Source of the DNA: Candidatus Thorarchaeota archaeon
GTDB lineage: Archaea > Asgardarchaeota > Thorarchaeia > Thorarchaeales > Thorarchaeaceae
Assembly (NCBI GenBank): GCA_029210805.1
Contig: JARGGA010000003.1
Coordinates: 1-36,417, forward strand
DNA: 36,417 nucleotides
Direction: 5' to 3'
Made by a program: the position numbers and the translations under genes. The stretch's first letter is position 1. Each line of letters begins with the position of its first letter. A model generated the notes under the pieces. It made no database searches. It was not told the DNA's origin and saw only the letters and a program-made list of their open reading frames with translations. This document shows, in pieces, positions 32,675 to 36,322 of the stretch.

Positions 32675-33022
32675 ATGTCAATGAAAAAACTATTCGACCA
32701 GATTCTCAGCGCTTTACGAGCTACAGGTGGAAAAGGCATGATCATTGACGAAATAACCTCCTTGCTCGACATTGACACACAAACCGCAGCAGATGCAATT
32801 GAAAAACTACTCAAGGAGAAACGAATCAAAATGGAAGATGCCCGATACTTACTACAGCAAGACGCGATGGGCGACGAGGCAGAAAAGGGGAAAGTAGGCG
32901 ACCTAAATGGTTGTCCTTGTTTTCAATGCCATAAGCTATTACTCTGTGGGGTCCGACAACCAGACTCGCCTACTAAGTGCAAAGAAATGCAATATTGGAT
33001 GATAGCATCCGATCAAGCGTAA
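32675..33022 (+). CDS. TFE-beta / RPC34(RPC39)-like winged-helix protein with putative Fe-S Cys cluster
   Basis: wHTH IIDEITSLLDIDTQTAADAIEKLLKEKRI, then CPCFQCHKLLLCGVRQPDSPTKCKEMQYWM, which resembles the C-terminal Cys cluster of RPC39. ATG at 32675 or 32681. Confidence 0.65.
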   Translation: MSMKKLFDQILSALRATGGKGMIIDEITSLLDIDTQTAADAIEKLLKEKRIKMEDARYLLQQDAMGDEAEKGKVGDLNGCPCFQCHKLLLCGVRQPDSPTKCKEMQYWMIASDQA

Positions 33023-33253
33023 AGAGATGCAAGAGTAAAAGGTACCCGCCTCTCACTCTACGGTTGTCCATGCTTTCCACGAGTGAGAATCACCAAGTGC
33101 AGTGAGTTTTCATCCAAGTCCGGTTAACGATTGATACTGAACAATAGTCACAATGAGGCAAGTTCCTCATCGGGGCCAATCGTGGTAGGAGGGTTGAGTT
33201 TCGTAATTGAGGGAAGCCACGTTACAGAGAGCAGGCGGAAGCGTGACCAAAGA

Positions 33254-33266
33254 GCGTGACCAAAGA
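33254..33266. repeat. Second copy of a perfect 13-bp tandem duplication (first copy 33241-33253)
   Basis: gcgtgaccaaaga x2, read directly. Confidence 0.9.
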
Positions 33267-33677: not shown

Positions 33678-34934
33678 GTGATATTTGAGGGAGTAGAAGA
33701 ATTGAGCCGCTCTGAAAAAGATGTTGAACTCGATGATGATCTGGAACCAATAGTGATTGAAGCTAGAAAGCTTGTGACTTCTTGTGAAGATATATTGAAG
33801 AAACGTGACCTGACCGAAGAGGATTTCAAAATAGGATTTACACAAGCTCTTCACGAATCACTAAGGCAATTGGATATAGAGCATTCAGTTAAGTTTGAAA
33901 AGAATGTGTTTAAATCACTAAGAGCGGACGCTCTTTATCCGCAGCTCATGATTGAATACAAGAAGCCAGGTGTGCTTTCAGATATTCGATCAGTAGAGAA
34001 AGTAGTAGAACAAATTAGTGAATATCTCAAAGGAATCATGAAAAAAGAGCCGAATAGAAGACCTGTTGGTGTCGCAATGATGGCAGCTGGGGCATTTGCC
34101 TGTGCTACCGGAGGAGTTGTTGGCATTCCATCAATTCTATTTGGTCTTGATATGGTCACCAGCAACACACTTGGTCATTCTGTCTTGGATGTTTCCTTGA
34201 AGGGTATGCTCCTGATAGGTCTGTCCGGCGGAGGTATCATGTCGGACATGCGAGGTGGATCATCGAGAGATGTATCGTTTGTATTTGAGGAAGGATTCAG
34301 CTTCTTCCAGTTCACTGGCGACCATCTCACGAACCTCATCCTGACTCAGCTGACGTTCATGATAGTAGGAGCTGCTTTAACGGGCTTCTCTGGACTTTCG
34401 CGTTTCCTAGTCCAGCAGATAGAGAAAAATCCCGGAACGGGGGGAACTTTCGCATCCCTGACGGAATCTGGTACTGCCGGTTTGAGGGATATCATGGACC
34501 TTGCTTCCAAAGCCTCTGGTCTTCCAAATACAATGCTATTAGCAGAATATCTTCTACACAACGCACAACATCTCATCACTGGAGCTGTCTTCCTCTACAC
34601 CCTTGGTGCAATAGGTAGTGCATTTGGTGATGCCGGATTGATAGCTGAGGTATTGCTTCAAGTGGCTATTCTCGCTCAGGTTACACTGGGAGTATATTAC
34701 TCTTGGAAGTCCATGAACTACCAAGAAGAGGTTTCGAGCTACAAAGAGGTCAGTGAACAGTTCGGGGAACTTCCTGATACTGTGAACACCATCAAACTCC
34801 GACTCCAATGGAGTGCCCTAGAACAAGCATCAAGAGAATACGGTTACTTCACAAGTCGGTACAAGATGGTAGCACTAGGTTTGAGCATCGGAACAATTGC
34901 TCTGCAATATGCTACGATTGCCGGAAGCCTTTAG
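33678..34934 (+). CDS. Multi-TM protein with N-terminal PD-(D/E)XK-like domain
   Basis: N-terminal SLRADALYPQLMIEYKKPGVLSDIRSVEKVVEQISEYL resembles D...(I/V)EYK nuclease-type cores; C-terminal about 250 aa has several hydrophobic segments. GTG start. Confidence 0.6.
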   Translation: MIFEGVEELSRSEKDVELDDDLEPIVIEARKLVTSCEDILKKRDLTEEDFKIGFTQALHESLRQLDIEHSVKFEKNVFKSLRADALYPQLMIEYKKPGVLSDIRSVEKVVEQISEYLKGIMKKEPNRRPVGVAMMAAGAFACATGGVVGIPSILFGLDMVTSNTLGHSVLDVSLKGMLLIGLSGGGIMSDMRGGSSRDVSFVFEEGFSFFQFTGDHLTNLILTQLTFMIVGAALTGFSGLSRFLVQQIEKNPGTGGTFASLTESGTAGLRDIMDLASKASGLPNTMLLAEYLLHNAQHLITGAVFLYTLGAIGSAFGDAGLIAEVLLQVAILAQVTLGVYYSWKSMNYQEEVSSYKEVSEQFGELPDTVNTIKLRLQWSALEQASREYGYFTSRYKMVALGLSIGTIALQYATIAGSL

Positions 34935-34958
34935 TCAGGAGGATGGGAGGGGAGGAAC

Positions 34959-35801
34959 ATGGGAATATTTGAGCAGGTCGTTGAACTGGCATCATCGACA
35001 AACAGAAATTCGAGGATAGATAGTCTCGCGGCTCTAGCTCAATCCTGTGTGAAACACCCACCTCCGAAGCTCACTTCTTCAGAGCGTGAGTCCTTGCTAC
35101 AAAAGGCAAGAGAGTTTTTCGAGGAGCCGGACTACTTATCCAGTGAGAGCATAGTGTATATCGTCGCACAAGCCTCAGAACCAGAGGATATTCACCATAT
35201 CGAAAATCATGAGGTGTTTAGGTACGAAGGCGAACCTGAAGGATTCGCCCGTTTTGTATATCAGAATGATTTCCATAGTCATATATTGGGTCATTGGGGT
35301 GTGTTTCAGAAGGGCGAGGTAGTTCTCCTTCGGGATACCTGTACCGTTCTCTACGGCAACGGGAACCTCCGGAGGCGTGGATATATCTTTGTGACAGACA
35401 GGAGAGTCATCTTCTTGGGAGAGGTCAGAGGTCTATACTCGGAGCACTCGGACTCCACACGATTCTTGTACGATGACTGGGAACAACTCCCCTACCTTCA
35501 AAACTACGATTTTATCAATCTTGACCAGATTGTGAATATCGAATCCAAGTGGGGATGGACAAGTCGAACACTCAGTATAGACTGCAAGGTAAAGCACGTT
35601 GTTGAGAAGAGCCGTACCATATTCGGTCCATACTTCTTCAAATGGGATTTGCCAAAGACACATGACGTCCGAGAGGGACTGGTCAACATCAAGGTCGACC
35701 TTGATAGATTCCAATTCGTGAATTTTCCAAAGGATTGGAGAAAGATTCGTCAGGAACGGATTGTCGAAGTCGTGCGAGATAGAATGTCTGCTTTGCATTG
35801 A
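34959..35801 (+). CDS. Hypothetical protein with possible PH/GRAM-like domain
   Basis: GNGNLRRRGYIFVTDRRVIFLGEV... is typical of bacterial-PH/GRAM strands; starts 24 nt after the preceding stop. Confidence 0.6.
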   Translation: MGIFEQVVELASSTNRNSRIDSLAALAQSCVKHPPPKLTSSERESLLQKAREFFEEPDYLSSESIVYIVAQASEPEDIHHIENHEVFRYEGEPEGFARFVYQNDFHSHILGHWGVFQKGEVVLLRDTCTVLYGNGNLRRRGYIFVTDRRVIFLGEVRGLYSEHSDSTRFLYDDWEQLPYLQNYDFINLDQIVNIESKWGWTSRTLSIDCKVKHVVEKSRTIFGPYFFKWDLPKTHDVREGLVNIKVDLDRFQFVNFPKDWRKIRQERIVEVVRDRMSALH

Positions 35802-36322
35802 GCACGTAGGATGAGCAGCCAACTCCTTATTACCAATCCTCATGGAAGCAGCTTTTATCCATACCCCACTCTCTTCTCTGTATATCCCTTGCAATTCATC
35901 ACTTAAATTCCATTCTGACCTACACATATTTGGTGATCATAGGAATGGAAAAAGGCATGTTCATAGATGACCAAAGGACTCTGAAGAAATCTAGGAACGA
36001 ACAGGGACCGCAAGTCCCCCCACTCGTCCGACTAGGAGCTGAGATACTAGAGGAGGACGACTAGTATTCGGCTTTGGCAGTGATGGCGCCCTCCGGTTTG
36101 TCATTGGACAACCAGCGGCAACTAAGAACAAACAAGGGATAACAAAGTGCACGAACTGTCAAGCAGCAATCTAGTCATTTAATCCGTCATTTTCGAGAGT
36201 AGAAAACGTTTCAGACCAAGTTGACAGACTTTGACGATGGAGAATTTGAACTAGAATCATGCAAACAGATCGGTCCCCGACACAGTGGAACCCCGCACCC
36301 CATCTCTGGTTAACCATACTGA

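Follow-up and report, generated by a model that had tools for sequence, protein, structure and literature searches.

A 36,417-nucleotide (nt) stretch of Candidatus Thorarchaeota archaeon DNA (assembly GCA_029210805.1, contig JARGGA010000003.1, our contig C459), here called the window, encodes a protein in which an N-terminus resembling that of Type IIG restriction-methylases is fused to a multi-segment membrane domain, followed by a gene for a PH/GRAM-like protein. With moderate confidence, we read the fused gene as a recent domain-swap chimera, possibly a relic, that arose within an accessory membrane family and has no defence function. A preliminary description made from the DNA letters had correctly placed the two open reading frames (ORFs) and their 24-nt spacing, and had suggested that they might form a defence or DNA-at-membrane system. 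That suggestion is unsupported because the fusion is a single instance, its nuclease is truncated, and no defence genes neighbour it; the nuclease part occurs in one gene only, and the membrane and PH genes exist as a pair without it. The features of the locus are as follows.

33678..34934, + strand: chimeric gene encoding 418 aa, in which a Type IIG-like nuclease N-terminus is joined to a Thorarchaeota membrane domain
33702..34085, + strand: nuclease-like N-terminal part, with Type IIG conservation up to 'VGVAM' at ORF residues 130-134; G+C fraction (GC) 0.375
34050..34931, + strand: membrane domain with about six hydrophobic segments, common to paralogues in the same genome and to four other Thorarchaeota genomes
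34959..35801, + strand: gene for the PH/GRAM/GLUE-like partner (280 aa)

The first ORF begins with GTG, and a TTG at 33702, after GAGGGAG, is a plausible alternative start. The locus was studied by Pfam, PADLOC, NCBIfam, Rfam and Protein Data Bank (PDB) sequence searches, by AlphaFold2 and Foldseek, and by surveys of 228 genomes of the phylum and 47 of the class. The fusion of nuclease part to membrane domain occurs in 1 of the 228 phylum genomes, and the architecture is not that of a recurrent, conserved effector. The combination of nuclease-like, membrane and PH/GRAM modules is unusual, as first described. The full chimeric protein had no match in the collection of genome contigs.

The nuclease-like N-terminus and the fusion point

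Sequence comparison indicates that the N-terminus is related to the nuclease region of Type IIG restriction-methylases. In PADLOC, Type IIG models cover residues 44-128 with E-values of 3.5e-11 and 2.6e-7. The motif LRADALYPQLMIEYKKPG carries D84, E93 and K95, putative catalytic residues that fit the active-site pattern D...(D/E)xK and align with those of Type IIG relatives; D84...E93-Y-K95 is followed by a helix bearing Q112 and Y116, and the wider pattern RxDALY...(D/E)YK..P is conserved between the N-terminus and these relatives. Pairwise comparison with three Type IIG proteins gave matches of 29-31% over about 100-130 aa, at the expected position. A single-sequence search of the phylum found matches in two other genomes, with genome-wide E-values of 3e-7 to 3e-9. 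When a four-sequence profile was used, all confident matches in Asgard archaea were Type IIG proteins; within the phylum it matched five other genomes, one of them marginally (8.6e-4), where the frame spans 56 residues and is no Type IIG gene. The Type IIG relatives scanned all carry N6-methylase domains, and two reach up to 3e-168 with a PADLOC Type IIG model. Published analyses of TspDTI (PMC3384240) and HVO_A0006 (PMC4389544) identify the corresponding region as a PD-(D/E)XK nuclease.

The similarity to Type IIG enzymes stops at VG(I/V)A (ORF residues 130-133), within strand 4, where those enzymes go on with 'DGxNIIFI'; in the chimeric protein this strand overlaps the first hydrophobic segment. 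The PD-(D/E)XK-like N-terminus of the preliminary description holds as a Type IIG-related region with D84, E93 and K95, but not as a confirmed complete domain. Type IIG conservation reaches VGVAM within the 'VGVAMMA' stretch that the description had assigned to the nuclease part, but this stretch can be aligned with the membrane family's first membrane segment as well. The homology to nucleases gives way to that to membrane domains at one VGVA stretch, with a VG motif shared by both. AlphaFold modelling, which had been proposed as a check, was confident for the partner protein but not for the fusion, whose predicted local distance difference test score (pLDDT) of 50 is too poor to judge whether the fold is complete.

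Neither Pfam nor PADLOC detected a methylase domain in the chimeric protein, no restriction-modification gene was found among the neighbours tested, and a target-recognition domain is not present, residues 135-418 being the membrane domain. We found no other nuclease homologue in the source genome and no match to the nuclease part among the viral contigs, plasmids or phages searched. Within the class, the nuclease part is restricted to the chimeric gene (1/47 genomes).

The membrane domain and its PH/GRAM-like partner

The large hydrophobic domain noted earlier consists of six segments within residues 132-415. Residues 125-418 match contigs C419, C197, C329 and C465 of the same genome at 41-49% identity, in addition to weak matches, and the domain is present in four other genomes of the class, which with the source genome makes 5 of the 228 in the phylum. 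An alignment search of the named collection with this domain matched Candidatus Thorarchaeota metagenome-assembled genomes only, and viral contigs yielded no match. Membership in SLATT, a family of pore-forming effectors, was considered and rejected, the NCBIfam match being weak (E 0.041; 13.7 bits vs a 55-bit cut-off). In the members with a readable upstream part (C197, G019, G031 and G046), the membrane domain follows a large N-terminal domain that is homologous among them and up to about 800 aa long; it is not a nuclease and, judged by its sequence, probably faces outward as an extracytoplasmic domain. The chimeric protein has five lysine or arginine residues in the 15 positions preceding its first hydrophobic segment, a stretch that appears compatible with a cytoplasmic N-terminus. 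Disruptions occur in several members of the family: the C329 paralogue has lost its N-terminal part, the large domain of the C197 paralogue is split over frames, and the G008 member contains a stop, although such disruptions in draft metagenome assemblies may also be sequence errors.

The AlphaFold2 model of the partner (pLDDT 88; predicted template-modelling score 0.85) comprises a helical part (residues 1-112), a PH-like beta domain (122-248) and a C-terminal helix (260-279). Foldseek placed the GLUE domain of EAP45, the PH-GRAM domain of MTMR2, the anillin PH domain and the EPS8 PTB domain among its neighbours, with a best E-value of 3.5e-3 and a probability of 1.00 for GLUE and MTMR2. The protein does not reach the threshold of a curated family (Pfam bPH_3, 14.4 bits vs a 23-bit cut-off). 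According to the model, the partner has a PH/GRAM/GLUE-like fold, in line with the PH/GRAM-like signature proposed earlier. Matches to the partner were found at six other places in its own genome and in 11 of the 47 class genomes, the source genome included; it is most closely related to the PH genes on C329 and C490, which also belong to that genome (support 0.993). The sequences in the PH alignment diverge too much for relatives to be sought by pattern.

At the readable membrane loci of the source genome, the PH gene lies directly 3' of the membrane gene, and the pair is found in other loci and genomes without the nuclease part. The pair is an undescribed Thorarchaeota accessory family that is patchy, fast-changing and lineage-restricted. 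Because PH-family genes also occur without an adjacent membrane gene (L049, 5666-6415; L053, 9218-10108), the PH protein may also have a separate role. In another Thorarchaeota genome, a PH-family gene has, ca. 2.6 kb upstream, a gene for a Peptidase C25-like protein (Pfam 2.8e-6; L051, 4349-5548).

Origin of the fused gene

The composition of the nuclease segment looks foreign, which suggests a recent event. Its GC is 0.375 and its GC at third codon positions (GC3) is 0.319, as against 0.479 and 0.447 in the membrane part, and both values are lower than in any of the 19 window genes used for reference, whose minima are 0.417 and 0.353. We propose that the ancestral copy encoded a membrane protein whose large N-terminal domain was probably extracytoplasmic and, after it, a PH/GRAM-like protein that was probably located at the cytoplasmic face of the membrane. 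The window copy would have lost the large domain, and a recent rearrangement inside a repeat-rich insertion would have fused the opening ca. 130 codons of a Type IIG restriction-methylase, in frame, to the beginning of the membrane domain at the VG motif. The resulting protein would be a nuclease-like stub anchored in the membrane, probably on the cytoplasmic side, that retains D..ExK but is without the last part of the nuclease domain and without methylase and target-recognition domains. Nuclease function would then be weak or absent, and the membrane and PH parts may retain their ancestral membrane role. The window holds no remnant of the large domain, nor of a Type IIG gene beyond its N-terminal part.

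Three further features of the window flank the gene pair.

32690..33022, + strand: TFx, a small conserved gene whose 3' end recurs on C251 (89 bp, 74% identical)
33157..33254, + strand: 98-bp truncated copy of a non-coding repeat that is dispersed through the genome (17 other matches), lying upstream of the chimeric gene
35824..36133, + strand: repeat directly 3' of the PH gene, with related sequence after the PH genes on C465, C490 and C566

In relatives, TFx is followed directly by an FtsJ-like and then a Trm1-like gene (the two names are our own reading of the sequences). This conserved order is broken in the source genome, where the FtsJ-like and Trm1-like genes lie on C251 beside a second TFx 3' end; that copy, at the start of the contig (L109, 1-330), is identical at 66 of 89 positions and scores 43, vs a maximum of 14 in 200 shuffles. 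The genes upstream of the pair keep the order seen in relatives. Because the TFx 3' end recurs beside the FtsJ-like and Trm1-like genes, the simplest inference is that the gene pair lies in an insertion after TFx, together with dispersed repeats; C459 and C251 are not joined in the assembly. Copies of the dispersed repeat are found on C78, C461, C84, C329, C581, C106 and others, and the match between C78 and C329 is longer, at about 450-600 bp. On C329, a copy lies just upstream of the truncated membrane gene. The downstream repeat (40-300 bp; also on L112, L111, L048 and L049) begins within about 30 nt of PH stop codons at four loci and also follows an unrelated ORF on C581; it could be a decayed gene, a 3' regulatory element or one end of a mobile element. 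No Rfam family matched the locus.

Most of the neighbours are housekeeping genes; they include pyrB, dCMP deaminase, SBF transporter, FTR, MCH and FtsZ. FtsZ and two tetrahydromethanopterin enzymes, Mch and Ftr, are encoded on the same contig at 798-2063, 14997-15974 and 18716-19612. Among the window proteins tested, the only defence match was one weak, partial one; a location among defence genes, in the sense of the defence-island enrichment that had been suggested as a check, was not seen. The preliminary description had also considered that the pair might be a ubiquitous housekeeping locus unlinked to mobile or defence genes. The missing link to defence genes is borne out, but the pair itself is a patchy accessory one (5/228 genomes for the membrane domain and 11/47 for the PH protein) in an apparent repeat-bearing insertion.

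Several observations weigh against a recent domain swap. The compositional difference rests on 119 codons. The chimeric ORF is fully open, keeps its putative catalytic residues and is joined exactly at the membrane-domain boundary, and a functional fusion would look alike; an open frame and an intact motif are nevertheless no proof of selection, because the composition suggests a recent event. In the sister paralogues on C329 and C490 the N-terminal part is missing, because the gene is truncated or the contig ends, and this sub-clade may therefore have had an older nuclease fusion, although the C329 paralogue showed no clear nuclease remnant (best E 0.8). Finally, neither a complete N-terminus nor a signal peptide was seen for the large domain of the relatives.

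The same observations leave room for a functional membrane-tethered nuclease, possible though in our view unlikely, which would sit at the cytoplasmic face under regulation by its PH/GRAM-like partner and would cut incoming DNA or act as a toxic effector. The open frame, the intact D-ExK motif, the clean fusion at a domain boundary and the five lysine or arginine residues, which fit a cytoplasmic N-terminus, speak for such a protein, and HVO_A0006 of Haloferax, a separate Type IIG N-terminal fragment whose deletion alters methylation (PMC4389544), provides a precedent. However, the fusion is a single instance in 228 genomes, its nuclease domain is cut in strand 4 and gave no confident fold with AlphaFold2, defence genes were not found nearby, and the membrane and PH pair exists without any nuclease. 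A working membrane-anchored restriction-type nuclease whose PH/GRAM-like partner reads membrane state, whether directed against incoming DNA or serving as a suicide effector, seems to us improbable.

We also give a low probability to an assembly chimera, in which a membrane gene of the family was misjoined to the start of a Type IIG gene that belongs to a different organism or locus. The 4.03-Mb source genome is fragmented (699 contigs) with 5% contamination, there is a compositional step at the junction, and neither a second instance of the fusion nor another nuclease homologue in the genome was found; yet the reading frame is kept across the join, which falls at a domain border on both sides, the similarity at the join spans only a few codons, below usual assembly overlaps, and the upstream gene order is that of relatives. 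That the N-terminus is not nuclease-derived and resembles Type IIG proteins by chance is very improbable, since the silence of Pfam even at E=10 and the PDB sequence searches, which returned chance matches only and no relative, are contradicted by the profile evidence (PADLOC 3.5e-11), the pairwise matches at the expected position, the genome-wide E-values and the conserved RxDALY...(D/E)YK..P pattern.

Significance and comparison with known systems

If real, the fused gene represents the capture of a restriction nuclease domain onto a membrane scaffold in an Asgard archaeon; should it be a relic or the product of misassembly, it warns against taking one-off fusions for systems. It also exposes an undescribed Thorarchaeota pair of a large-domain membrane protein and a PH/GLUE-like protein, which may outweigh the nuclease in importance, since these archaea are the closest to eukaryotes and such pairs of PH-superfold and membrane proteins bear on the origin of membrane-associated PH modules.

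The chimeric protein has in common with Type IIG enzymes (TspDTI-like; PADLOC PDLC03630 REase_MTase_IIG) the N-terminal helix, the D..ExK strands and the following Q..Y helix, but has a membrane domain in place of the helical linker, methylase and target-recognition domain. TspDTI has an N-terminal PD-(D/E)XK domain with D66, E75 and E77, and its homologues show the typical D-EXK (PMC3384240). HVO_A0006 of Haloferax volcanii is likewise a nuclease part of Type IIG kind that stands apart from methylase and specificity domains, in the context of a mobile element (PMC4389544), whereas in the window protein the last strand runs into a membrane segment. The partner model has the beta sheet and C-terminal helix of the PH superfamily (GLUE of EAP45/Vps36, PH-GRAM of MTMR2, Pfam bPH_3) but differs in its extra N-terminal helical part, with Foldseek E-values above 0.001 and a bPH_3 score below the cut-off. 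The Asgard ESCRT-I-like protein Znr_PH_CC_SB is also a PH-domain protein and is expected to be membrane-associated (PMC10936438); its zinc ribbons and steadiness box were not found in the window partner, whose mate is instead a polytopic membrane protein.
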